Source: Candidatus Pacearchaeota archaeon (GTDB taxonomy: Archaea > Nanobdellota > Nanobdellia > Pacearchaeales > GW2011-AR1). From it: DNA of 47,487 nucleotides. Both the position numbers and the translations under genes were made by a program. Below, in pieces: positions 1,331-47,487 of this stretch (the stretch's first letter is position 1; every line of letters starts with the position of its first letter). The DNA lies in contig JAGLQO010000001.1 in the NCBI GenBank assembly GCA_023136775.1, forward strand, positions 1-47,487. Direction: 5' to 3'. The notes under the pieces are model-generated. The model worked only from the letters and a program-made list of their open reading frames with translations. It was not told the origin of the DNA and ran no database searches.

Positions 1331-3562
<2,232 letters not shown>

Positions 3563-3563
<1 letters not shown>

Positions 3564-3865
3564 TGGGATGTAATTGTAATAATTGTGATTATGGAAAAGA
3601 AAAAATTAAAGAGAGTAAGATTAAGGCTTACTTTTGTCCAAATTGTAAATCTGTAAATGTAAAATATGTTTTTGAATTAAAAAATGCTTTTGGTGTTATT
3701 CCAAAGATGAGATGTTTAGATTGTAAAACAGAGATGGCTAGTTTTCCAATTGTTACAACTAACGAAGGTGAAATGAAAAATTCAATTGATAATAAACCTG
3801 TTAAGAAAGTTAAGGGAGTTGTTAAACCAAAAGCGGTTATTAAAAATGGAGAAAATAAAAAATGA
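3563..3865 (+). CDS. zinc-ribbon protein between gyrB and gyrA
   Basis: A 100-residue protein I cannot assign to a characterised family. It has three cysteine clusters: Cys3, Cys5 and Cys8 at the N-terminus (CNCNNC), then CPNC (25-28) and CLDC (51-54), the last two spaced as a zinc ribbon. From about residue 65 it is a Lys/Pro/Val-rich, probably disordered tail. The start overlaps the gyrB stop by one base (TAATG), and its stop overlaps the gyrA start by four (ATGA), so all three are probably translated together. A DNA-binding or gyrase-associated role is suggested by context only. The N-terminal CxCxxC could bind a further metal. Confidence 0.8.
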
Positions 3866-6453
3866 GTGAAGAAAAAATTATTGCAAATGAGGATATTCAG
3901 GGAATGGATAATATGGAAGCAGCAGAAAAAGAAGCTGAAGCATTTGATAAGAAAAGAGAAGTTTTGAAAAGTTCAGTTAACGCTAAAGAATTAATTGATG
4001 CAGAAATTTCTAGTGAAATGAGGGAAGCTTATTTGAATTATGCAATGTCGGTTATTGTGGCTAGGGCTTTACCTTCGGCGGAAGATGGTTTGAAACCAGT
4101 TCATCGAAGAATTCTTTGGGGAATGAATGAGATGGGAGTTTATCATAATAAACAAACTAAGAAATCCGGTAGAATTGTAGGAGATGTTATGGGTAAGTAC
4201 CATCCACACGGAGATGCCTCTATTTATGACGCTATGGTTAGAATGGCTCAGTCGTGGTCTCTTAGATATCCTTTAGTTGTTGGTCAGGGTAATTTTGGTT
4301 CTATGGACGGAGATGGAGCTGCGGCTTCAAGGTATACCGAAGCTAAGATGGAAAAGATTTCTATGGAAATTCTTGATGATGTAGAAAAAGATACTGTCGA
4401 AATGATGAAGAATTATGATAATAGTTTGGAGGAGCCAACGATTATGCCTGGACGACTTCCTAATTTATTTTTGAATGGAGCTTCTGGTATCGCTGTTGGT
4501 ATGGCTACAAATATTCCACCTCATAATTTAAAGAATGTATGTGATGCAATTACAGTTTATTTGGACAATAGGGAATGTAGTGATACTGATTTAATTTCGG
4601 CTATTAAAGCGCCTGACTTTCCAACTGGCGGAACTGTTAGTGGAGAGATTAGAAGAATTTACACTGAAGGTAAAGGTAGATTGATTCTTGATGGTAAGAG
4701 CGTTATTGAAGAACCAAAAAATGCAAAAGGTAAAACAAAAATTATAATTACAGAAATTCCTTATCAGGTTAATAAGGCAAATTTGGTTGAGCAAATTGCA
4801 ACACTTGTTCGAGATAAAAAACTTCCAGACATTTCTGATATTCGAGATGAATCTTCTAAAGGAAAAGTTAGAGTTGTAATTGAACTTAGAAGGGGAAGTG
4901 AACCCAAATTCACATTAAATAGATTGTATAAATATACGCAGTTAAGAATTAGTTTTAATGCAAATATGCTAGCTCTGGTAAATAGGGTTCCAACACAATT
5001 AACTCTTAGAAAATATATTGAAACTTATGTTGGACATAGACAAATTATTATTCGAAAAACAAAAGAATTTGATTTGAAAAAAGCCAATAAGAGACTTCAT
5101 ATTGTTGAAGGTTTATTGATCGCTCAATCTAATATTGATGAAGTTGTTCATTTAATTAGAAAAGCTAAAGGAAAAGTTGATGCGGCATCTCAACTTAAAC
5201 ATAAGTATTCTTTAACAGATGTTCAGACAGAAGCTATTCTTGAAATGAAGTTACATCAAATTACTTCTCTAGAATTTGATAAGTTAAAGGGCGAAGAAAA
5301 GAACTTGAGAGACTTGATTGATAAATTAAATAAGATTTTAGGAAATGAAGATTTAATTCTTAAGATTATTAGAAGGGAGTTGGATGAATTGAAGGAGAAA
5401 TTCGGAGATAACAGGAGAACAAAACTTGTTGGAGCTGTTGGAGATTTTGAAGAAAGTGATTTGGTTGATAAGAAAGATGTTGTTGTTACGATTACCGAAA
5501 GAGGATATATTAAGAGAATTGATTTAGCTCAATATAAAGAACAGAAGCGAGGAGGCAAAGGGGTTATCGGGTCAGATTTAACTGAAGGAGATTTTGTTAA
5601 AGAATTGTTAACTTGTAATACTCATGATTATATGTTGTTCTTTACGGATAAGGGGAAAGTTCATTGGTTAAAGGCTCATGAAGTTCCAGCAAGTGCTAAG
5701 TCGACTAAAGGTAAAGCCATTATTAATTTACTTGAGATTAAAGATGAAAAAGTTACATCTGTTTTAGCGGTTAAAGAATTTAATGATTATTTGATGATGG
5801 CGACTGAGAAAGGTGTTGTTAAGAAAATTGAGTTATCTCAATTTTCAAATCCAAGGAAGGGTGGAATTAAGGCGATTAAAGTTGCTGAGACTGAAGACAC
5901 TTTGATTAGTGTTAAGCCGATGAAGGAAAATCAAGAAGTATTGTTGGTCACGAAGAAAGGTCAAGCTATTCGATTTAAGGGAAGTGAAGTAAGGGCAATG
6001 GGTCGAGCATCATATGGAGTATCTGGAATTAAGATGGGCAGTGAAGATAAGGTTGTTTCTCTAGAAGTTCTTCCGCTTGAAAATCAGAGTCAACATTCAA
6101 TTTTGACAATTACAACTAATGGTTATGGGAAGCGAAGCGAGATTGAAGATTATAGATTAACTGGACGAGCAGGAAAGGGAGTTATTAATATGAGAGTTAC
6201 TGATAAGACTGGAGATATTGTAACTTCGCAATCTGTTACAGTTAAGGATAATATTATTGTTACAACTGAAAAAGGAATTGTAATTAGAACTCCAATAACA
6301 AATATTAGAGTGATGGGTCGAGCAACTCAAGGGGTTAGAATAATTAACTTGAAAGGTGAAGACAAGGTATCTGATTTAACGCGAGTTCCAAATGAAGAAG
6401 CAATCATTGTTGAAGAAAAGGTTGAAAGAATAGAAGGTCAACAATCTCTTTAA
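3862..6453 (+). CDS. gyrA: DNA gyrase subunit A
   Basis: The DNA-cleaving and wrapping subunit of gyrase, 863 residues. The breakage-reunion domain begins around residue 45 with SSEMREAYLNYAMSVI and includes GLKPVHRRIL, GKYHPHGDASIYDAMVRMAQ and the catalytic tyrosine Tyr158 in AASRYTEAKM. The C-terminal beta-pinwheel carries the GyrA box as QKRGGKG at 561-567, so this is gyrase rather than topoisomerase IV, and further blade repeats follow (RKGGIK, ASYGVSG, GRAGKG). About 38 acidic N-terminal residues precede the usual start. It follows the zinc-ribbon gene with a 4-nt overlap. Confidence 0.98.
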   Translation: MSEEKIIANEDIQGMDNMEAAEKEAEAFDKKREVLKSSVNAKELIDAEISSEMREAYLNYAMSVIVARALPSAEDGLKPVHRRILWGMNEMGVYHNKQTKKSGRIVGDVMGKYHPHGDASIYDAMVRMAQSWSLRYPLVVGQGNFGSMDGDGAAASRYTEAKMEKISMEILDDVEKDTVEMMKNYDNSLEEPTIMPGRLPNLFLNGASGIAVGMATNIPPHNLKNVCDAITVYLDNRECSDTDLISAIKAPDFPTGGTVSGEIRRIYTEGKGRLILDGKSVIEEPKNAKGKTKIIITEIPYQVNKANLVEQIATLVRDKKLPDISDIRDESSKGKVRVVIELRRGSEPKFTLNRLYKYTQLRISFNANMLALVNRVPTQLTLRKYIETYVGHRQIIIRKTKEFDLKKANKRLHIVEGLLIAQSNIDEVVHLIRKAKGKVDAASQLKHKYSLTDVQTEAILEMKLHQITSLEFDKLKGEEKNLRDLIDKLNKILGNEDLILKIIRRELDELKEKFGDNRRTKLVGAVGDFEESDLVDKKDVVVTITERGYIKRIDLAQYKEQKRGGKGVIGSDLTEGDFVKELLTCNTHDYMLFFTDKGKVHWLKAHEVPASAKSTKGKAIINLLEIKDEKVTSVLAVKEFNDYLMMATEKGVVKKIELSQFSNPRKGGIKAIKVAETEDTLISVKPMKENQEVLLVTKKGQAIRFKGSEVRAMGRASYGVSGIKMGSEDKVVSLEVLPLENQSQHSILTITTNGYGKRSEIEDYRLTGRAGKGVINMRVTDKTGDIVTSQSVTVKDNIIVTTEKGIVIRTPITNIRVMGRATQGVRIINLKGEDKVSDLTRVPNEEAIIVEEKVERIEGQQSL

Positions 6454-13707: not shown

Positions 13708-16700
13708 TTAAAGAAATTTTCTTAATACCTTTTCTTTTAGTTTTGGAATAAATTTTATTTTATTTTTTAAGTCATCAACTTGTTTTTCAATTTCTTTTAG
13801 TTTTTTAAGAATTTCTTCTTGTTCTTTAAGGCTTAAATTTGGAATTTTTAAGTTGCTTAACAAAGTCTGATTGAGACTTTTTATATTCGACCCCTTGCTT
13901 TCATTAAATAATTTATTTCTAATTTCATTTGTTTTTAGATAGTAACATAAGAATTTAGAATTATAATTATTATTTAATAATCTTAATCTTATTGTAAATC
14001 CAGAAAATGATGTTTTTTCAAATAGGTTATCTACGTATAAAAATCTTCCAACTAGGTTTGCAGATCCATTTGATCTAACGACCAGAATATCGTTACAATT
14101 TAGCTCGTAGTTTTCTGCTAGTTCTCCAGATATTTCAGTTTCTTCCAGTTCGTCAAGGTTTGGCGAAAAATGTTCTTGGAAGTCCTTGACTCCAACAATT
14201 TTTACGAGTTCTCCATTGGATTTTTTGTCAAAGTTTAAACCATTTTTGAATTCAACCAAATCAGATAAATTAATATATTCCGAGCGTATATTTTTCAAAT
14301 TTAGTTCAATTTTATTATTTAATATGGAGATTTTCTCTTTTGAATTTTCTTCTTCTTCTTCTAGTGCCCTAATTTCTCTGATAATGTCATTTTGAATTTT
14401 TTTGGGAGGAATGGGAATTTCTAAATTTTGTAAATATGTTTTAGAGATATTTCGTAGCCCCTGTCCAGTTAATCCAAATTGAATATGGTTAAAATTGACA
14501 TTAAAAAAATTGAATATATATTGATTTAATAGTTCAACGTTATTTGAGCTAAAAATAAAATTATGATCTGAAGCAGAGAATTTATTATCAATAAATATTG
14601 ACGAGTTTCCACCATCTCCAATAATTATATTTTCATCTTCGTAGTCATATCTATCTACATATTTATTTAAAATTTTACTTGAAGTATAGAAGGGATATTT
14701 CCCATTATCGTTCCCATAACTTGCAGCTCTTTTTGATTTTGATTTAAATTCGATATTATTTTCTAATTTAATTAAGTCCCATTTAGTGTCTATAGATATT
14801 TTTCTCGATGGGTTGATTGAAATAATTTTATCAAATTCTGGTCTATTAAATGTAATCATATCAATTAAATTAATTCTTGATATATGGTTTTTTAATTCTT
14901 CATCAATTTCTCTATCGAATTTATCTTCAAAAGCATCATAAATATATGTACTAACTTTTTCCCCATTGTTGTATGAGTTCGAATCAAACAATTTGGTACA
15001 TTCATCAATTGTTTTTCCCTTTTTTATAGGATGGATGCCTTCAGTTCCACGCCTATTGCTAAATTCATAACCTAAAAAGTTTTTTTCTATTTTTCTCTCT
15101 CCCGAATCTACCAAGACAATTTTTTGGCCGTATGTTAGAATATAATATAATAGTTTTTCTTTTTCGGTGTTAATAATCTTGTTTAATAATTCCTCAGAAG
15201 ATTTGTGTCTAATTGTTTTTTTGTAGCTTTTAAAAAAATTGGAATTTAGAATTGCTTCAGTTGGGTTTCGTTTAAAGATAGAAAGATAATCTTCAAACGA
15301 AATTTCTGGGAAATTAAAATTTACATATTTAGAAAAAATATTTTCAAAGTTATCTACTGTTATATCTTTAAAATCTTCGCAGAATTGATTTATTGAATTT
15401 TCAATATTCTTCCAATCATAATCACTTCTTCTTTCTAGAAATAGCGTAACTGTTTCAGTATTTGTTGCCATAAATGTTCCTTTTCCTAAGCCAACCATTG
15501 ATTTAATCTTAAAGTATTTTAATAGTATCCCTCTTGTTTTTGAATAATTTCCTAGGTTTGATAGAAATGTTACAGGTAAAATAATTCCCGCTACACCTCC
15601 TTCATTTAGTAATTGCTTGCTTCTTTCAATGAATAAGCACTCAATCTCTGAACTTTGCTCTGTCAATCCCTTGTATAAATCGAAATCTTTGTTTGCCAAT
15701 TCCCTATCTTTAAAATTCCCTTTAAACCCTGGAACTGAATAAGGGGGGTTAGAAATAATTACATCAAACTGCTTATTATCTTGAGGAAAGTTTTTATCAT
15801 TATGCTTTAATTTTCCAGTATAGGATTTGGATTTTTTAAAATTATCCAATCCATCACCAATAATCACATTGGCAATACCATCACCATTCAAATAGCATCC
15901 AACTTTTGCAGTTTTAACTAATCTATAATCCTGTTCAATGCCGTATATATATTCGTGTGCCCAAATAAATTCATTATTTTTCCAAGTTAAAATTTGTTTT
16001 TTTATTTTTTCAGAATAGTCGGATTCTTTTATATTATCAATAATTTGCTGAATTTCATCCATAGATTCAATTAGAAAATGTCCGCTTCCTGCAGCATAAT
16101 CAATTACGTTTGGCAATAAGTCTCCAGAATTATTTTCATTTAATTTATTTTTTATTATTTTTGTTAGAGGTATGGATTTGCAAATAAACCTTGCTACTGG
16201 AACTGCAGTAAAAAATTGTCCAGACTCTTGTTTTAACCCCGTCGTTAATAACAGTTCAAAGAAATTACTTAAGTATTGTTGCTTTTTGTTATATCTGAAC
16301 CTATATGTTTGTAGCAATTCGACAACCTCTTTTAGAACTTTTGCATTTTCTTCAAATGTTTCATTGTCAAAAACTTCTTTTATGGCAAATTCATTATTCT
16401 TTTGAAGTCTAAGCTTTGTTATTTCTTCAAGTATTTGCTCTCTAACTTCTTCTTTTAACATTCCGAATTTATCATTAAATTCCTTTTCGCTTAGATCGGT
16501 AACGGTCTTTGATAACAGCTCCTTCATCCCCTTTCTGTATAAATCGGTTAATCTTTTCTGAAAGGAAATATTGTCATCTTTTCCCTCTATCCATTGAAAA
16601 TGTAATTCCTCCGAAGATTTTCTTTGTTCATCTATAATTTTGCATAGAAATAATGTAAAAATTTTATTAAATGCATTTGGTTTATCTGAAACTACATTGT

Positions 16701-17400
16701 GCCTTAGGATTTCTGAAAATCTATGAAATATAAAACTACTATCTTCTTCTGTTATTGGTTTTAATTGTTCAATTGTTAAGGATTTAGATTCAAAGTCATA
16801 GCAATCAACCCAATTTTCAAATATGCCGTTTGGTTTAGTTATTTTATTCCATCTATCAAAAAAATCTTTAACATTACTTGTTTCTCGATATGAATCTTCA
16901 ATATTGATTATTTTATTAATAAATTCAGCTTTATTTTTTTCAATTTTTGAAGTATATAGCATTAAATATTCAGCATTGGTGTCTTGCTGAAAATAAGTAA
17001 ATAGTTGTCCACCACTCTTATTTAAACTCTTTAACTCTTTTTCAAACTCTTTTCCCCAAGTTTTACATTCTATCATTAAAAAAGCTTTTTTATTTTTCAG
17101 TACAAGTATGTCCAACCTTCCACTTGTTCCGTGCCCAGTAGGATAAACTTTTTCTAATATTAAATCTTCTGGATCATAACCTTTTTCTAACAATCTATCT
17201 ACACATTCTAATACAACCCAATTTTCCTCTTGTGAAAAATTTTGAGTAGTTTTGCTATCGCATTTTACCTTTTTACCGAAATTAATTTTACTATTTTCAA
17301 AATCAACTTCGATAGAATAACTATTATATTTTTTTGTAAAAATTCCAATAGAATTATCTTTAGGGCTAAAGCCCAGCGCTTTCACCATCTCTTTTTCCAT
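13708..17400 (-). CDS. single-chain restriction-modification-specificity enzyme (type IIG-like)
   Basis: A 1230-residue fusion of all three restriction functions. The N-terminal nuclease (about 60-150) is an HsdR-N-like PD-(D/E)xK domain: Asp97 in GRLDILV, Glu111 and Lys113 in IECKTW, then GQLFTYFQQ (131-139). The central N6-adenine methyltransferase has SAM motif I DYAAGSGHF (about 433-441) and the catalytic NPPY at 551-554. After about residue 880 come two HsdS-type target-recognition domains separated by coiled coils (IPIPPKKIQNDIIREI and a glutamate-rich helix; then IPNLSLKEQEEILKKL near the end). No helicase motor is present, so it is type IIG/BcgI-like rather than type I, and a single polypeptide would methylate and cut. 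The reading frame is intact. It is transcribed away from the HExxH gene. Confidence 0.9.
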   Translation of the reverse strand: MEKEMVKALGFSPKDNSIGIFTKKYNSYSIEVDFENSKINFGKKVKCDSKTTQNFSQEENWVVLECVDRLLEKGYDPEDLILEKVYPTGHGTSGRLDILVLKNKKAFLMIECKTWGKEFEKELKSLNKSGGQLFTYFQQDTNAEYLMLYTSKIEKNKAEFINKIINIEDSYRETSNVKDFFDRWNKITKPNGIFENWVDCYDFESKSLTIEQLKPITEEDSSFIFHRFSEILRHNVVSDKPNAFNKIFTLFLCKIIDEQRKSSEELHFQWIEGKDDNISFQKRLTDLYRKGMKELLSKTVTDLSEKEFNDKFGMLKEEVREQILEEITKLRLQKNNEFAIKEVFDNETFEENAKVLKEVVELLQTYRFRYNKKQQYLSNFFELLLTTGLKQESGQFFTAVPVARFICKSIPLTKIIKNKLNENNSGDLLPNVIDYAAGSGHFLIESMDEIQQIIDNIKESDYSEKIKKQILTWKNNEFIWAHEYIYGIEQDYRLVKTAKVGCYLNGDGIANVIIGDGLDNFKKSKSYTGKLKHNDKNFPQDNKQFDVIISNPPYSVPGFKGNFKDRELANKDFDLYKGLTEQSSEIECLFIERSKQLLNEGGVAGIILPVTFLSNLGNYSKTRGILLKYFKIKSMVGLGKGTFMATNTETVTLFLERRSDYDWKNIENSINQFCEDFKDITVDNFENIFSKYVNFNFPEISFEDYLSIFKRNPTEAILNSNFFKSYKKTIRHKSSEELLNKIINTEKEKLLYYILTYGQKIVLVDSGERKIEKNFLGYEFSNRRGTEGIHPIKKGKTIDECTKLFDSNSYNNGEKVSTYIYDAFEDKFDREIDEELKNHISRINLIDMITFNRPEFDKIISINPSRKISIDTKWDLIKLENNIEFKSKSKRAASYGNDNGKYPFYTSSKILNKYVDRYDYEDENIIIGDGGNSSIFIDNKFSASDHNFIFSSNNVELLNQYIFNFFNVNFNHIQFGLTGQGLRNISKTYLQNLEIPIPPKKIQNDIIREIRALEEEEENSKEKISILNNKIELNLKNIRSEYINLSDLVEFKNGLNFDKKSNGELVKIVGVKDFQEHFSPNLDELEETEISGELAENYELNCNDILVVRSNGSANLVGRFLYVDNLFEKTSFSGFTIRLRLLNNNYNSKFLCYYLKTNEIRNKLFNESKGSNIKSLNQTLLSNLKIPNLSLKEQEEILKKLKEIEKQVDDLKNKIKFIPKLKEKVLRKFL

Positions 17401-36604: not shown

Positions 36605-38509
36605 ATGGAGTATAGTAATATAAGTTTTGAGAATTTTTATCAGGGTGGTGATAGCGCTTTTAATTCTGAGTATGGTGGATTTGAGGGCAAACGAATTAGT
36701 GCTTCGCAACTTGGATTTCCTGGGTCCCCCCAGACTGCAAATCAATTAGGGGAAACTGTTAATGCTTTGAAGCAGGGAGTTAAAGCTTTTGAGGTTACCA
36801 TGCTTACGCCCGATACTGCTGAAACTATTCCTACTCAACATTTTAGCGAGATGAGGGCTTTGATGAAATTGTCTGGCGTTAAGCCTTCGGTTCATGGTCC
36901 GTTAATTGATGCTGCTGGATTTGATGAAAAAGGTGGATGGGGTGGAGAATCTGGTCGTGCTAATAATGAAAGACGAATGTTTGGAACTTTGGAGAAGGCT
37001 CAAATTTTGGGTCCTGACGGAAATATTCCAGTTGTGTTTCATATTAGTGCTGGGATGCCTGGGACTGAATGGATGCCTGGAGGCGAGGGCGAAGATAGGG
37101 CTGTTATGAATAGGGGTGTTGCCATTAATCGAGAGACTGGTCAATCGATTGGACTTAGTCGTGAACATAAATTTAGACCTGGTATGGATCCAAATAAAAG
37201 TTGGATTGAGGACGAAGAAGCTGGGGGTTACAAGGAAGTTAAAGGTGGACCTGCTGGTATTTTATTTTCGGCTGAGGGGTCTGTTGATTCGGCAAATTCT
37301 ACGGAATGGGATAAAAAGATTTTGGAAGTTGCTGAGATGAATAAAAGAACAGAAGAAATTATAGGAGCGGCTCCTATGAATTTGGCGGAATATAGAAACG
37401 CATATTTTTCTAAGGATGGTAAGAAAATTGTTTCTGCTGATAAGGATGGTAAAATGAGTGACCTCCCGATGATTAGTACTGAGGCTCAGGCCAAGTCCTA
37501 TGATCAAATGAGGCGAGCTACTCTTTTTGCGAAAAATGCCGAGCAATCTTTTGGGAGTGCATTTCATAATGCATGGGCGTATGGGACTAAGGATCAGAGA
37601 GAAGAGTTGGAAGAATTATCAAATAATTATTCTGAAAAAATTAAGGGAGCAAGGGTTGAGGGTAAAATTTGCGGGGCTTTTGATAGACAGCAAATTTTAG
37701 GTAATGCGATAGATCAATTAGATAATATAACTAAAGGTCATGCTCCTGAACTCTTCCAAGAGGCTGGAGAATTTGCTTCGGACAAAGCTGCTACTACTTT
37801 TGGAAATTTAGCTATGAAATCTTATGATAAGTTTGAAGGCAAGGCTCCGATGATTGCAATTGAACCTGTTCATTTTGGGATGGGGCTTTCAAAGACTGAA
37901 GAGGTTATGGATGTTGTTGAGAAAGCTCGTGAAACTTTTTCAAAACAGTTGATTGATAAAAAAGGTTTGGGTCAAAATGAGGCCGATAAAATTGCTGAGG
38001 AAAAAATCGGAGTTACTTGGGATGTTGGGCATATTAATATGATGAAGAAATATGGGTTTGAGGATAAAGATATTTTAGAGGCTTCTGAAAAAATTGCACC
38101 GATGGTTAAACATATTCATATTACGGATAATTTTGGTCATGCAGATACTCATCTTGCTCCCGGTATGGGAAATGTTCCGATAAAAGAAATTTTGGAGCGG
38201 TTAGAAAAGAATGGGGAATTTGATAAGATGAGGAAAATTGTTGAGGCAGGTGCTTTTGTTCAGCATTTTAAGAAATCGCCATTTCCATTGTCGTTGGCTG
38301 CTTTTGGTTCTCCTATTTATGGGATGAAGGCTGGTCCTGGATGGAATCAGGTTATGGATGTTCAAGGAAGTTATTCAGGTGGATTTGGAACAATTAACCC
38401 AGAGCAACATCATTCAATGTATGGAGCCGGTTTTACAACAATGCCAACTGAACTCGGCGGACAAATGCCGGGGGGAAGTTCTAGGTTCGGCGGAACCCCA
38501 ATGGCTTAA
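36605..38509 (+). CDS. xylose-isomerase/endonuclease-IV-like TIM barrel with a large insertion
   Basis: A 634-residue protein with the AP-endonuclease-2/sugar-isomerase TIM-barrel pattern. Likely metal ligands all appear in barrel order: His97 (SVHGPL), His146 (VFHISAG), Glu420 (AIEPVHF), Asp473 and His476 (TWDVGHI), His505 (HIHITD), Asp514 and His516 (DTHLAPGMG) and Glu547 (VEAGAF). This is compatible with the nine-ligand trinuclear zinc site of endonuclease IV or with a sugar isomerase. Nfo-type proteins have about 280 residues; here about 230 residues of mostly helical insertion (roughly 150-410) lie between the second and third ligand groups, and a Gly/Met-rich tail follows 580. An AGGTGAGG ribosome site precedes the ATG. 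Confidence 0.75.
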   Translation: MEYSNISFENFYQGGDSAFNSEYGGFEGKRISASQLGFPGSPQTANQLGETVNALKQGVKAFEVTMLTPDTAETIPTQHFSEMRALMKLSGVKPSVHGPLIDAAGFDEKGGWGGESGRANNERRMFGTLEKAQILGPDGNIPVVFHISAGMPGTEWMPGGEGEDRAVMNRGVAINRETGQSIGLSREHKFRPGMDPNKSWIEDEEAGGYKEVKGGPAGILFSAEGSVDSANSTEWDKKILEVAEMNKRTEEIIGAAPMNLAEYRNAYFSKDGKKIVSADKDGKMSDLPMISTEAQAKSYDQMRRATLFAKNAEQSFGSAFHNAWAYGTKDQREELEELSNNYSEKIKGARVEGKICGAFDRQQILGNAIDQLDNITKGHAPELFQEAGEFASDKAATTFGNLAMKSYDKFEGKAPMIAIEPVHFGMGLSKTEEVMDVVEKARETFSKQLIDKKGLGQNEADKIAEEKIGVTWDVGHINMMKKYGFEDKDILEASEKIAPMVKHIHITDNFGHADTHLAPGMGNVPIKEILERLEKNGEFDKMRKIVEAGAFVQHFKKSPFPLSLAAFGSPIYGMKAGPGWNQVMDVQGSYSGGFGTINPEQHHSMYGAGFTTMPTELGGQMPGGSSRFGGTPMA

Positions 38510-40275: not shown

Positions 40276-40307
40276 AAAATAAAATGGTGGCTCGACGAAA
40301 GAGTACC
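40273..40307 (+). repeat. leader block shared with the S28e upstream region
   Basis: This stretch matches 560-590: AAAAAATAAAATGG then TCGACGAAAGAGTACC. Here it forms the first codons of the nucleotidyltransferase, whereas at S28e it is interrupted by a TGA. In both cases a lysine-rich protein beginning ATGGCAAAA follows. Confidence 0.5.
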
Positions 40308-41294
40308 GATATAAAAAATAAAATTATGGCAAAAAAGAAAACTAAGGTGAAGGCAGTTTCTTCTAAAAAGAAATCTGTTTCTAAGTCTAAAACTTCAGAT
40401 AAAAAAGTTGTAAAACCAAAAAAAGTTGCCGAAATTGTTTCTCCAACTGTTATTCCGAAGAAAAAAGCAAAACCTAGGACAAGTAAGATTCCCGCAACTA
40501 TGAAGATTACTAATGAACGGGAAATTGCAGCCGATTTTGCTACTAAGGTTTATGATAAGTTTGATCAGATAATTAAATCAATTGTCCTATTTGGTTCTAG
40601 TGCTAAAAAATCAACTACGATTACTTCGGATATAGATATTATTGTAATTATTGACGATGTTTCTGTTAAGTGGGATGAAGAGTTAATTGCATGGTATAGA
40701 GAAGAGCTTGGAAAATTAATTCAATTTAATCCTTATGCTAAATCGCTTCATATTAATACGGTTAAGTTAACTACTTGGTGGGACGATATGATGAGGGGCG
40801 ACCCAGTCGTTATTAATATTTTAAGATATGGGGATGCTTTAATTGATTTTGGTGGATTTTTTAATCCGTTAAGGATTTTACTAAAAGAGGGAAAAATTAG
40901 GTCTACTCCAGAATCTATTTATACACTTCTTCAAAGGGCTCCGGCTCATATGACTAGGGCTAGACAATCTATGCTTGCTGCGGTTGATGGGCTTTATTGG
41001 ACAATGGTTGATGCTTCACATGCGGCTTTGATTTCTGCAAATATTATGCCTTCGAGTCCAGAGGAAATTCCAAAAGTGCTTGATGAACATTTTGTTCAGA
41101 CTAGAAAGTTGAATAAAAGATTTGTATCTTATTATGTGGAAATACATAAGGTTGCAAAGGAAATTATTCATGGGACAAAGGGTGTTATTAAGGGTAGAGA
41201 GTTAGATGATTATTTTTTGAAGGCTGATGCATTTCTTGGAGAAATGGCAAAATTAGTTGATTCGTATATTGATAAAAAGGCTGGAGAGAAGTAA
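40284..41294 (+). CDS. MNT-type nucleotidyltransferase with lysine-rich N-terminus
   Basis: A 336-residue protein. Residues 1-70 are very rich in Lys and Ser and probably disordered. The nucleotidyltransferase core follows: LFGSSAKKS (about 102-110) with SDIDIIVII (about 114-122), the G-S-x-D-x-D metal site. The C-terminal helical part (about 215-330) contains MTRARQSMLAAVDGLYWTMVDASHAAL and may be HEPN-like, but the usual R-x4-6-H motif is not clear. Related MNT-HEPN pairs are toxin-antitoxin systems; here both would be in one chain. It starts 8 nt after the DUF2283 gene. An in-frame ATG at 40326 is an alternative start. Confidence 0.7.
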   Translation: MVARRKSTDIKNKIMAKKKTKVKAVSSKKKSVSKSKTSDKKVVKPKKVAEIVSPTVIPKKKAKPRTSKIPATMKITNEREIAADFATKVYDKFDQIIKSIVLFGSSAKKSTTITSDIDIIVIIDDVSVKWDEELIAWYREELGKLIQFNPYAKSLHINTVKLTTWWDDMMRGDPVVINILRYGDALIDFGGFFNPLRILLKEGKIRSTPESIYTLLQRAPAHMTRARQSMLAAVDGLYWTMVDASHAALISANIMPSSPEEIPKVLDEHFVQTRKLNKRFVSYYVEIHKVAKEIIHGTKGVIKGRELDDYFLKADAFLGEMAKLVDSYIDKKAGEK

Positions 41295-41924
41295 TTAATC
41301 TGATTCCGCAATAGCTTCTAATTTTCCAGATATTGAATTCAATCTTTTTTTTGCAATAGCTTGCATCACATAAGAGTTTAGGGTCCCATGGATTTTATAT
41401 TCATCAAAAGTTGCTAACGCATTCATTACTAATTTTTCATTTTCAGAATCTCCAAATTCTCCTATTTTCCCTGGGGTATTAATCATCCTTTCCTTTAAGT
41501 TGTTGGAGATATCAATGGATGGAGTGCCATCTTCTCTTGAATGATATGATAAAATATTTTTACTAGTTAAATCATTTAACATGCCTTTTCTTTTTTCAGT
41601 ATAACTTATTCCAGCGTCGTGCAATGATTGCAATGATTGCACGAGGTGTTCATTTACCTGTCCAGGATCTTCGACTTTCTTTTTATCTTCTTCGGATGCT
41701 GTGTCATAATTTTGTTTAGTCATAAGGTGATTTCTTGCTAAATATGCATTATTAATTGCTGTTCCTATAAATGAATCAAGTTGTTCCCCACTAGATAAAA
41801 ACGTTTTATACATTTCTTCCATTGCTTCAATTTGCATATTTTGGTTTTCTATTCCTAATTGAGCATATCCAAAAGCATCTAAATGAGATCTATTGAAACT
41901 AGGTTTTGAATTTTCTTTTCCCAT
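41295..41924 (-). CDS. unknown helical protein
   Basis: A 209-residue protein. I choose the ATG at 41924 because a TTATATAG box lies about 27 nt upstream; the frame runs further back without resembling a protein. It is predicted mostly helical, with SHLDAFGYAQLGIENQNMQIEAMEEMYKTF near the start and an internal SLQSLHD repeat caused by a 9-bp DNA duplication (about 41620-41640). No motif or domain is recognised. It converges with the nucleotidyltransferase, their stops being adjacent. No signal peptide or membrane helix is seen. Confidence 0.6.
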   Translation of the reverse strand: MGKENSKPSFNRSHLDAFGYAQLGIENQNMQIEAMEEMYKTFLSSGEQLDSFIGTAINNAYLARNHLMTKQNYDTASEEDKKKVEDPGQVNEHLVQSLQSLHDAGISYTEKRKGMLNDLTSKNILSYHSREDGTPSIDISNNLKERMINTPGKIGEFGDSENEKLVMNALATFDEYKIHGTLNSYVMQAIAKKRLNSISGKLEAIAESD

Positions 41925-42054
41925 AATAGACAATAGTATTAGAGCTATATAAGCCTTTCTATCTGTTGTTTCTAAGTAGTAGTGACAGACGTAAATCTTT
42001 TGAGATTTATGGACTGAGGGCAGTGGGCTGGGGTATCGGGTGGAAAACATTGTT

Positions 42055-42177: not shown

Positions 42178-44394
42178 CTAGTTGAATATATCTTCTTTTC
42201 TTGGCTTTTCTTCAGAAATTGGTTCCTCTTCAGGATTTTCTTTTTCTTGATTATGTTGTTCTACTGGTTCAATTTCTGGTTCTGTTGGATTTTTTAAATT
42301 TTCTTCTTTGTGTTCGTTTTCTACTGATTCGGTAGAAACTTCTTCAGGATTTTCTTCTGCTGGTTTTTCCATGTCTTCTTCAACGGGTTCTTCTGGCATT
42401 TCAGAGTTTTCTTCTTTCATAGTTTGAGACTCACCTCCTTCTTGTAGGTTATTCCCAATCTTTTCGTCTTCTGACACATCCACTATATTATTGTTTTCTT
42501 TGATGTCTTCAGTGTAATCTTTTCCGTTTTCTAGTTTGTAGATTAATTCTGACAATTTTCGAGCGTTAGCTGGATTTGTTGTTATAGAATCAATTCCGCG
42601 TTTAATTAAAAATTCTATTGTTTGTTCTTTGTTGGTAGCTTTCCCGTAAATAGAAGTTTCAATGTTGTTGGATTTACATTCTCTGATTACTCTGGATATT
42701 AATTTCAGAATTGCCCATGAGGGTGCTTGAAATATTTCTTGTATGTGGTCGTTTTCCTCTTCAGCCGCTAAGGTGTATTCTGTTAAGTTGTCAATATTTA
42801 TTGATATGAAATTTATTTCTTCATCACAAATATCTTTTATTAAAATTGCAGCGGCTGGAGTTTCAATTGATATTCCTAGTTTAATGTCATCCATATCTAA
42901 TTCTTTTAGCAACTCTTTTGTTTGTTTTATTTCATCTGGAGAAATTACTTGGGGTAGCATTATTCCTATGTTTTTATTTTCGTTTGTATTTTTTATTGCT
43001 AATAATTCTTTTTCGAAAATATTTTTGTGTTTTAGAGAAAATCTTATTCCATGATTTCCAAGAGCAGGATTTCTTTCGGGTTTTCCGTGGGTTTCTAATA
43101 AACTTCCATATTTATCGCTTTGGATGTCGGTTGTTCTTATCCAGATATTTTTTTCTGTAATTGAATCTGTTATTTTTTTGAGATACTCTTCTATCATTTC
43201 TTGATATTCTTCCAATAAATTTTCTTCTTCGTATCTTAAAGGGTGTTTTCTTCCTCTTGCTATGATTTTATCTATTTTAATTAATCCAATTCCATCACAT
43301 TTGATGTTTGTTGCTAATTCGGTGTCTTCGTGGGCATTTGCGATAATTTTTATTTTGGTGTTAGTTTTTATTATAGGGAGTAAGTTTTCTTCGTCATTAA
43401 ATCCTTTTTGTTTTTTAATTTCTTTAGTTCCTACAATATGTAGATTTTCATTTTCTATTGCGAATTGAATGGCTTGTGGATTTTTAAAATGTTTTTCTAT
43501 TTTTATTGCAATTTCTGTTAATTGTTTTATTTCATAAGTTTTCAAAACTCTTGTTGAAGATTTAGCTTCTGGAAGATTTATGAATTTAGTTTGTCCATTT
43601 CCAGTTCTAATAATTGCTAATTTTTTATCAGATATTTTTTCATCAACAATTTCCATTTCTCTTGTGAGTTCATATATGTCTGGAATTATTTTTTTTGAAA
43701 TATCTCCACATCCAAAAATTACTTCTATTAAGATATTTTCGTCTTCTACGTTTTCTGTTTTTGTGAAAATTGTTCCAGATTTATCAGAGTTTACCATTTT
43801 TTGGATTATCACACTTGTTTTTACAAAATCGTCTAATCCATTTTTTTTTCTAAATAAAATTGAACTAGGAGTAAATGGGTAAGTAAAACATATTTTTATT
43901 TTATCGATTAATTTATTGTTTTCTCGAATATTGATAAAATTTCTTCTTTCTTGATTTTGATTGCTTAATTCTTCATCTACTGAAGCTTTGATAGAAACAA
44001 AAATTGGTTCACGAGATGATTTTAAAATAGATAGGGCACCTGGAGAATCTTTTAGTTCGGATAGGTCTATATTAAAATTGTCATAAGCTTCTAGAATTTC
44101 TTCTTTCATTTCTTTTGGCATTTTGGCATTGGCTATTAAATTTTGTATTTCTTCGCTCTTTTCTTTTAAATTTTCTTTATCACTTATGTCTATTTTTTTT
44201 AGAATAGATTTTATTTCGTCTTCTATTTTATTCTCTCTTAAATAGAATTGGAAGGCTTCAGTTGTTATAGTAAATCCTTGAGGTGTTGGAAATTTTGCAT
44301 TAAATAATTCTCCTAAGTTTACGGCTTTTTTGCCGACTAGGTTTATATCATTATTAGAAATATTTGAAAACCATATAATGTGTTTATCACTCAT
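42178..44394 (-). CDS. PEP-synthase-like pseudoenzyme lacking the phosphohistidine domain
   Basis: A 738-residue protein built like phosphoenolpyruvate synthase but altered at its active parts. Residues 16-50 (NLVGKKAVNLGEL, PTPQGFTITT) are the start of the ATP-grasp domain. The central swivelling domain with the phosphorylated histidine is absent: at about 325-345 the chain goes from the end of the ATP-binding domain straight to the barrel (TKIKIIANAH, DGIGLI at 367-372). In the barrel NPMLGWRG is NPALGNHG, the ND-L-T-Q motif is NIDNLTEY, and the catalytic CGQAP region reads SIYGKATN. The ATP-grasp RSSATAED region is SIKASVDEE. Residues from about 630 form a long Glu/Pro/Asn-rich disordered tail. 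Probably catalytically inactive; role unknown. Confidence 0.8.
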   Translation of the reverse strand: MSDKHIIWFSNISNNDINLVGKKAVNLGELFNAKFPTPQGFTITTEAFQFYLRENKIEDEIKSILKKIDISDKENLKEKSEEIQNLIANAKMPKEMKEEILEAYDNFNIDLSELKDSPGALSILKSSREPIFVSIKASVDEELSNQNQERRNFINIRENNKLIDKIKICFTYPFTPSSILFRKKNGLDDFVKTSVIIQKMVNSDKSGTIFTKTENVEDENILIEVIFGCGDISKKIIPDIYELTREMEIVDEKISDKKLAIIRTGNGQTKFINLPEAKSSTRVLKTYEIKQLTEIAIKIEKHFKNPQAIQFAIENENLHIVGTKEIKKQKGFNDEENLLPIIKTNTKIKIIANAHEDTELATNIKCDGIGLIKIDKIIARGRKHPLRYEEENLLEEYQEMIEEYLKKITDSITEKNIWIRTTDIQSDKYGSLLETHGKPERNPALGNHGIRFSLKHKNIFEKELLAIKNTNENKNIGIMLPQVISPDEIKQTKELLKELDMDDIKLGISIETPAAAILIKDICDEEINFISINIDNLTEYTLAAEEENDHIQEIFQAPSWAILKLISRVIRECKSNNIETSIYGKATNKEQTIEFLIKRGIDSITTNPANARKLSELIYKLENGKDYTEDIKENNNIVDVSEDEKIGNNLQEGGESQTMKEENSEMPEEPVEEDMEKPAEENPEEVSTESVENEHKEENLKNPTEPEIEPVEQHNQEKENPEEEPISEEKPRKEDIFN

Positions 44395-44803: not shown

Positions 44804-45076
44804 CTACATTTGTTTGGCTGCAAAAATCATTATATCCCTGATAGTTTTGAATTCCCATGCTTTCTCATCTGGAATACTTATTGCAAGTTTTTCTTCTATG
44901 CAGTGAATTAGGCAATAAGTGTCCAGACTATCCAGTCCCAAATCTTGAAGTAGTTTCGATTCTGGCTTTACCTTAGCTAGATTGATACCAAAGATATCAT
45001 AATGTTCTTTGCCAGTTAAAATTTCTTTGATGCAGTCAAAAGCTTTTTCTTTTTTTGCAGAAAGTTCATTAATCAT
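44804..45076 (-). CDS. acyl carrier protein-like
   Basis: A 90-residue protein of the acyl carrier protein family. The phosphopantetheine serine is Ser50 in LGLDSLD (family LGxDSLx), followed by the helix CLIHCIEEKLAISIPDEKAW and the final FKTIRDI helix. An N-terminal Lys-rich segment and residues 20-45 (with KVKPESKLLQDLG) precede it. It has a Shine-Dalgarno GGGGAG about 8 nt upstream, and its ATG overlaps the stop of the previous gene. ACPs serve fatty-acid and other synthesis; archaea rarely use them. No synthase genes are seen nearby, and the neighbours are unknown small membrane proteins. Confidence 0.85.
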   Translation of the reverse strand: MINELSAKKEKAFDCIKEILTGKEHYDIFGINLAKVKPESKLLQDLGLDSLDTYCLIHCIEEKLAISIPDEKAWEFKTIRDIMIFAAKQM

Positions 45077-46297: not shown

Positions 46298-47487
46298 TCA
46301 TGCTTCAATAGAAGTACTCTTGCGTTTTATAATCGCTTTCGGCGACTCAAATGCTTCATCGGGCGAAGGGTAAAGCAGAACAATACAGTCATCAATGAAA
46401 AATGACATATATTGAATTCCTGAACTTTCATTATCAATCTTATATTTCCAATCGGAAACAGGATTTTCGACAATAGGGGGTTTCCCTGTCTGAAATGCAA
46501 TTTTGATATTCTTTAGCTTGAATTTCTCGAGGTTAATCTCAAGCACAGAATTTCCAGAAGAATTTTCACTTAATATAACTTCAAGTTCTTCAGTATTTCC
46601 ATCAAGCTTATGAGAAAGAAATTCCCTTTCATATGTATGAAAATTCTTTACCCTACAAATTTTCCCCCCAGAAACCATTTCGCTTTCAAGAATATCATTA
46701 ACATAAAGAAAAATACTTTTATCTTCGCTTTCTACAGAGTACCATTTCCCCTTTTTGTCATCTCCAGCTGGGACGTTCTTAACTTTCATGTATTCCCACT
46801 CATTCAATTCACAACTTTTTTCATGAACAACAGGAGCAATCCTGGCCATTAATCCATCAGCAATAAAATTAAAGCGGATAATATGATGTTTTTTATTTAG
46901 CTTAGATGCAACTTTGTGAAATAGCTCTTGTCCCCTTACGGTTTTAGCATCAAAGCGTTGGAAATATTTTCTTGTGATGTACTTGGGGTTATTCAAATCT
47001 AATAATTTCATAATTTTCTCCTTTTCATTCTCTTCTTTGGTTTTAGTAGAATCCCTACAATTGGGATTATTTTCCTTAACATACTCTTTAACACCAGTAA
47101 TTTGGGACTTCATAATTTTCTCCTCAGCAGCTTCCTCAAGTATATCTTTGCAGATTTTTGCACACCCAACAACTTTCGATTCATAAGAGCTCTTAAGAAT
47201 TTCATTTACAAAATCAAGCGCTGTTCTACCTTTGCCAGTTTTCATATTAAAATCAGCACCTTTTTTAAGTAAAAATGATAGAGTTCTATACAAGGAAGGT
47301 GCAGCTTCTATATTAATGAAATCTATTAAATAATGTAAAACATTCCATCCTCGCGTATCTCGTTGAGTAATAGTATAGTTCAATAATAATTCAATAATCT
47401 TTTCGTTACCTGGACGAATCGAATAATGAAGAGGACTTCTGCCAGCATTATCAAATACCTGAGTATCTACTCTGAAATCAAGAAGCA
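46298..47487 (-). CDS. ankyrin-repeat protein, 5' end beyond the window
   Basis: A partial gene read in from the right edge; the frame stays open there, so the true start is outside (an internal TTG at 47383 is not the start). At the N-terminal end of the visible part are ankyrin repeats: GRSPLHYSIRPGNEKIIELLL, then RGWNVLHYLIDF and a longer one ending FLLKKGADFNMKTGKGRTALDFV. The rest (about 290 residues) is not repeat-like, with a central strand-rich part and no membrane helix. It is the first visible gene of the bacterial-like operon. Ankyrin repeats bind proteins; the partner is unknown. Confidence 0.75.
   Translation of the reverse strand, partial: LLDFRVDTQVFDNAGRSPLHYSIRPGNEKIIELLLNYTITQRDTRGWNVLHYLIDFINIEAAPSLYRTLSFLLKKGADFNMKTGKGRTALDFVNEILKSSYESKVVGCAKICKDILEEAAEEKIMKSQITGVKEYVKENNPNCRDSTKTKEENEKEKIMKLLDLNNPKYITRKYFQRFDAKTVRGQELFHKVASKLNKKHHIIRFNFIADGLMARIAPVVHEKSCELNEWEYMKVKNVPAGDDKKGKWYSVESEDKSIFLYVNDILESEMVSGGKICRVKNFHTYEREFLSHKLDGNTEELEVILSENSSGNSVLEINLEKFKLKNIKIAFQTGKPPIVENPVSDWKYKIDNESSGIQYMSFFIDDCIVLLYPSPDEAFESPKAIIKRKSTSIEA

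Follow-up and report, generated by a model that had tools for sequence, protein, structure and literature searches.

The window analysed here is the whole stretch of 47,487 nucleotides from a Candidatus Pacearchaeota archaeon, whose family consists of tiny archaea not yet cultured. Its genes, aIF5B, aIF2-gamma and GluRS among them, and its nearest named matches (Pacearchaeota, Woesearchaeota) likewise suggest a DPANN archaeon of the Nanoarchaeota/Pacearchaeota kind. Its PpsA locus holds an open reading frame on the reverse strand that runs from ATG (at the 44394 end) to TAG over 738 amino acids with no interruption. The features of the locus are as follows.

36605-38509, forward strand: xylose-isomerase-like barrel protein, syntenic neighbour (Pfam, synteny)
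40284-41294, forward strand: nucleotidyltransferase-like syntenic neighbour (Pfam NTP_transf_2, 3.3e-8; 61-74% identity across the genus loci)
41295-42050, reverse strand: co-oriented downstream gene of 251 aa that matched no Pfam family (across the genus this slot is taken by genes that are unrelated or highly diverged)
42178-44394, reverse strand: domain-less native (type A) PEP synthase, 738 aa, predicted pseudoenzyme (intact ORF, positional orthology, tree)
42178-42201, reverse strand: C-terminal motif RKEDIFN-stop (common to intact native PpsA of the genus, as KEDIFN/D/S)
42202-42525, reverse strand: acidic disordered tail, aa 624-731 (pLDDT <50 from residue 636; ancestral to the intact orthologs)
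42553-43392, reverse strand: PEP-utilizers_C / PEP-binding barrel, aa 335-614, site decayed (Pfam PF02896, 5.2e-51)
43369-43416, reverse strand: junction without the ~110-aa phosphohistidine (swivelling) domain, with the linker KKQKGFNDEEN instead (alignment with orthologs keeping TSEGGxTAHAA)
43405-44343, reverse strand: PPDK_N / ATP-grasp nucleotide domain, aa 18-330, ATP site decayed (Pfam PF01326, 1.2e-54)

Architecture and setting of the window protein

The ATP-grasp and barrel domains of the window protein are joined directly by a linker of about 10 residues, at the site where its relatives carry a domain of about 110 residues. Pfam found no PEP-utilizers (PF00391) mobile domain in the protein, and the His column is a gap in the alignment. 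PF00391 had a match in 37/40 relatives and none in the window protein or in those of genomes G008 and G050; it was also missing from nine further domain-less copies. An AlphaFold2 model, built on a 40-sequence alignment, gave two mostly confident domains, with pLDDT blocks mainly at 85-97 and low values at the junction. Its best PDB matches were PEP synthase (2ols) and PPDK (1kbl), and the model held no third domain and no cryptic swivelling domain of the kind that would have spoken against the earlier sequence-only reading.

With PEP synthase PpsA (EC 2.7.9.2; 2ols, 8a8e, 9dae), the window protein shares both outer domains, their order and fold, and the PpsA locus of the genus. It differs in the absence of the phosphohistidine domain and of key ATP-site, PEP-site and Cys residues, and it falls far below the NCBIfam cut-offs: the PEP-synthase models NF005057 and TIGR01418 matched it in two pieces, at 344.9 bits against 598 and 337.7 bits against 739.75. 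PPDK (1kbl), the source of our numbering, has homologous ATP-grasp and barrel domains and, unlike the window protein, a swivelling His domain and both active sites. Enzyme I of the PTS has no ATP-grasp domain and keeps its catalytic residues. Its PEP-binding domain (2bg5, 2xz7) is a barrel homologous to that of the window protein (2.3e-26 for 2bg5).

The window locus is flanked by the same neighbours as intact PpsA in the genus, and the window protein is 49-55% identical to the PpsA of genus members in its N-terminal half. This synteny, together with its placement inside the genus in the gene tree (100/96), identifies it as the native PpsA ("type A") in positional orthology, still at the ancestral locus. 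The same synteny rejected a separate paralog. The sequence-only reading took for a derivative what is the native protein, and the regulatory or scaffolding role that it proposed may still apply. At the genus loci L062-L074, the gene after PpsA was co-oriented, 215-341 aa long and without a Pfam family where scanned. It was mostly not alignable across species, which suggests that the position is constant and its gene either changes fast or is exchanged.

The tail of the window protein (about 115 aa, of which 41 are D/E and 11 K/R) was also compared across the family. The acidic disordered tail of type A proteins varies, and in many of them the last residues form a short motif, summarised as xL[DG]IF outside the window's genus: KEDIFN in the window protein and its genus (g1), LDIF in several genera, and LGIF or LGIL in g36 and G112. 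Rows whose frame runs off the 3' end of the locus are truncated and were left uncounted. Among domain-less copies, the LGIF/L end was kept in G207, G177, G183, G050 and G204, and a terminal motif was missing in G008, G145, G202, G165 and the g102 copies. By this comparison, the tail is ancestral and present in catalytic orthologs too, and is no hallmark of a derivative; the sequence-only reading was right that an acidic tail exists and wrong to take it as a mark of the altered protein. In a search of six genomes for LDIF ends, the sole long frame with both an acidic tail and that end was PpsA. The candidate notion that KEDIFN/LDIF ends mark many proteins was rejected, the other pattern matches not lying at the ends of long frames, apart from a single match in G030 (L245), whose frame is 231 aa long.

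In many other genera of the family, PpsA is followed by two genes that we call F1 and F2 (for example L069:3081-4284, L176:9624-11244 and L173:8952-10383). F1 is a coiled-coil-like protein. The C-terminal half of F2 is similar to the N-domain of the secretion ATPases FlaI/GspE (profile E 0.002, fold 9e-6), a likeness that points to no function for PpsA. In g36 and g102 the order LemA-PpsA-F1-F2 was identical for intact and domain-less members. The PpsA locus of the window's genus has no F1/F2 cluster, and the fast-changing gene stands there instead.

Decay of the active sites

Family residues are numbered as in PPDK and were mapped onto the copies by motif; substitutions in the window protein are written as family residue, position, window residue. 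In PPDK numbering the ATP-site set is Lys22, Arg92, Asp321, Glu323, Gln335 and Arg337. The window protein showed the ATP-site changes R136K, D308A, E310Q, Q322G and R324K, and the loop SFAGQQ was gone; only the Lys22 equivalent remained of the ATP-site residues. The PEP site carried R373K, N535D and D536N, and the catalytic Cys was replaced by Tyr583 (TSIYGK). These positions correspond to R561 (K373), Asn768-Asp769 (D535-N536) and Cys831 (Y583) of PPDK. K23, R420, R451 and E511 were kept. Across the window protein, active-site motif columns were kept in 12/28 cases vs 95/132 for other invariant columns (p = 0.004).

The other domain-less copies told a similar story. The SFAGQQ glycine, Asp321, Arg561 and Asp769 were gone from all of them wherever those positions are present, and the catalytic Cys was gone from all except that of G008. 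Lys22 and Arg617 were found in every domain-less copy, and Glu745 in all but one, which has Asp there. Across these copies, decay of the ATP and PEP sites ran in parallel, and few copies have decayed as far as that of the window.

Set against a catalytic PpsA, the window protein has the PPDK_N domain and the barrel, and has neither the phosphohistidine domain with its catalytic His nor the equivalents of Arg561, Asn768-Asp769 and Cys831. From these losses we predict that catalysis by the known PEP synthase route is not possible for it. The sequence-only reading had said as much, and its three grounds were confirmed: two outer folds kept around a lost phosphohistidine domain (by Pfam and alignment), Tyr-Gly in place of the catalytic Cys motif, and altered ATP-site residues. 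With catalytic motifs lost and an open frame under purifying selection, the protein would be a pseudoenzyme of the PpsA family, and it should not be annotated as PEP synthase. A separate case was seen in G161 (contig C55, locus L139), where a type A-like PpsA lies in a 1436-aa frame with K22 changed to L and R92 to H, and with the phosphohistidine domain and barrel intact.

A second PpsA and repeated domain loss

The sequence-only reading had proposed a search for homologues with the same domain loss and for a complete ppsA elsewhere in the genome, and both were found. We searched 181 genomes of the family with a domain-less protein as query, and this returned 13 domain-less copies in three genera. 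Two were in g1 (G000, the window's own genome, and G008), nine in g36 (G050, G204, G165, G207, G202, G145, G177, G183 and, in pieces, G171), and two in g102 (G169 and G155). In g1, 14/16 genomes have a type A with the phosphohistidine domain; intact relatives carry the 110-residue domain with its His, plus the Cys.

The complete PpsA of the window's genome ("type B") lies on contig C17, is 801 aa long and has the motifs GGRTCHAAI and GICGQAPSD. Its identity to the window protein is low, at about 27%, and that to the type B of G008 is 82%. It was present in 2/16 genomes of the genus, exactly the two with a domain-less gene. Type B proteins have neither the acidic tail nor its terminal motif. 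Other families of the class commonly carry such proteins (60-72% identity) and this family seldom does, and because of this distribution type B looks to have been acquired by transfer. As an observation apart, type B matches were split near query residue 420 in open frames of about 1210 aa (G215:C8 and G197:C38, with similar cases in G349, G417 and G326), a pattern that would be given by some 400 aa, perhaps an intein, inserted beside the phosphohistidine motif.

Type B was found in all 13 genomes with a domain-less copy (in G171 as a partial gene at a contig edge). Domain-less type A occurred in 13/18 scorable type B carriers vs 0/~148 genomes that lack type B and have a type A match (Fisher p = 1e-15, uncorrected for kinship); the carriers G140 and G194 were not scorable and were left out of the count. 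At the level of genera, the figures were 3/7 with type B vs 0/75 (p = 4e-4). A relatedness-corrected pair test of type B against domain loss had 2 pairs only, too few for significance. Full-length type A was present in five type B carriers (G023, G030, G212, G215 and G197), and in two of the five it has every catalytic residue that was checked. Three type B carriers of genus g115 keep the phosphohistidine domain yet are without some catalytic residues, including G197 (His to Asn, Cys to Leu) and G215 (Cys to Tyr). They look like the same process at a different stage.

How often the domain was lost was judged from a gene tree built without the columns of the missing domain. The g1 domain-less copies nested inside g1 (100/96), and the g36 copies formed one clade (100/98). 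The g102 pair stood near its intact congener G120 in a quick tree (starred); the careful tree does not resolve its placement and groups the g36 and g102 copies weakly (71/67). A single ancient loss, with all domain-less rows in one clade, was rejected (AU p = 1.6e-77). By itself the gene tree did not reject (p = 0.35) a clade made up of the window copy and that of G008. In a species tree built on GyrA, aIF5B and two neighbours, G008 came out as sister to G009 and G015, both with intact type A and no type B, and G000 and G008 as sister species were rejected (p = 1.6e-4). The two g1 domain-less copies have in common 17 derived residues that are absent in intact g1, several at active-site positions, which may reflect either convergence or shared descent. 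From these trees we claim at least two losses of the domain, and four (G000, G008, g36 and g102) are likely. The two central facts, an acquired type B and a loss that recurred in parallel among relatives, had escaped the sequence-only reading.

What the domain-less protein may be kept for

We consider it probable, at roughly 0.72, that the native PpsA became a pseudoenzyme after takeover by type B and was kept for a pre-existing non-catalytic role. Type B would have been acquired and would have taken over pyruvate-to-PEP conversion. The native type A, freed from catalysis, would then have lost its phosphohistidine domain and its ATP- and PEP-site residues, while being retained for a non-catalytic job already present in the parent PpsA. 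The phosphohistidine domain has a single known task, the transfer of phosphate from one active site to the other. The domain would be dispensable for the retained role, and it was cut out more than once; its excision may also have spared the protein unproductive ATP hydrolysis or phosphate retention. The domain-less copies do retain the acidic tail along with the fold; several keep the terminal motif as well, and those of two genera the PpsA-F1-F2 cluster.

The retained job may be structural or regulatory, the two-domain body and the C-terminal docking motif of the acidic tail binding a partner, which in the sister genera probably lies within the F1/F2 cluster. A structural role is plausible because archaeal PpsA forms large homomultimers (PMC8100219). 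A more specific version, to which we give somewhat less than even odds, is that native PpsA has a second role as a scaffold or docking protein, through the xL[DG]IF end of its tail and, outside the window's genus, through F1/F2, and that it was stripped repeatedly and independently after foreign takeover. Catalytically dead paralogs have been reviewed (PMC10211241), and the prozyme of trypanosome AdoMetDC is one that tunes its enzyme (PMC5201418). Like these pseudoenzymes, the window protein keeps an enzyme fold under selection after loss of catalytic motifs. The difference is that here a native ortholog was displaced by a xenolog and the same whole domain was excised repeatedly. In open-licence literature we found no PpsA pseudoenzyme, and no PPDK-like protein without a phosphohistidine domain.

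Among the rivals we rank regulation of type B above slow decay, and slow decay above trans-complementation. The first, that the window protein is a regulatory subunit which modulates type B by binding it or forming an assembly with it, is unlikely and still the best of them. Domain-less copies exist only alongside type B, and the large homomultimers of archaeal PpsA (8a8e, 9dae) make hetero-assembly conceivable. However, the two proteins are as divergent as noted above, type B does without a domain-less type A in G023 and G030, and it is widespread in sister families, where type B alone was scored. Furthermore, the tail motif and the PpsA-F1-F2 cluster occur in genomes without type B.

The second rival, a functionless gene made redundant by type B and slowly being lost, would fit the eroded active sites and a loss that follows redundancy. 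The branch of the window copy is also long (1.06 changes per column), from which we take its constraint to be relaxed. Yet NG86 dN/dS was 0.12-0.20 for domain-less pairs vs 0.04-0.12 for intact pairs, with dS near saturation. Among about 300 replacements between the window protein and intact relatives there were zero stops; single-base changes in the window gene produce stops at 7.5% of the replacement rate, so that by a rough estimate some 20 would be expected under drift. The g36 clade of nine sampled species has open frames wherever these are complete, its domain-less pairs being mostly 56-74% identical (the outlier G183 at 40%). The missing stops and this conserved clade argue against a decaying gene, as do the two domains that fold confidently in the model and the intact RKEDIFN motif, and we hold this explanation to be improbable. 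A pseudogene, which the sequence-only reading had already dismissed on the strength of the 738 uninterrupted codons, was rejected on the frame, the dN/dS values and the stop estimate together.

Less probable still is an active enzyme, with its phosphohistidine domain given in trans by type B or by a stand-alone mobile domain. Both halves are retained and folded, and K23, R420, R451 and E511 are in place; against this, the residues of the chemistry are gone (D308A, E310Q, R373K, D536N, C583Y), mostly in the other domain-less copies as well, and a type B query in the window's own genome matched only the window gene and C17, with no separate mobile domain seen. An assembly or binning artefact, in which the domain was dropped or C17 came from another organism, can be invoked for a draft genome whose C17 is just 5.7 kb, but is scarcely credible given the same architecture with differing linkers in independent assemblies of 13 species, the two genes of G008 on large contigs (369 kb for type B, 256 kb for the domain-less gene), and the agreement of C17 with the window in tetranucleotide signature (0.982).

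If the native PpsA was indeed kept for a non-catalytic role after takeover by type B, these genomes would amount to a natural replicated experiment, in which an enzyme of central metabolism was relieved by a xenolog and pared down alike in separate lineages. Such repeated paring would expose a hidden non-catalytic job in the parent PpsA, and the set of genomes, the short C-terminal motif and the conserved gene cluster offer a handle for finding it. For annotation, the lesson is that gluconeogenesis is over-called in these genomes when PpsA is recognised by nothing but its outer domains.

Other genes of the window were noted in passing. An acyl-carrier-protein-like ORF (44804-45076, reverse strand; PP-binding, 5.7e-9) lies just upstream of the PpsA-like gene. 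In this archaeal genome gyrB and gyrA are adjacent at 1662-6453 on the forward strand, and gyrA was unmatched in 3/16 genus drafts. An ankyrin-repeat protein (46298-47485, reverse strand) runs off the window, and a single-chain restriction-modification protein of 1230 aa (13708-17400, reverse strand) combines HSDR_N, N6_Mtase and Methylase_S.
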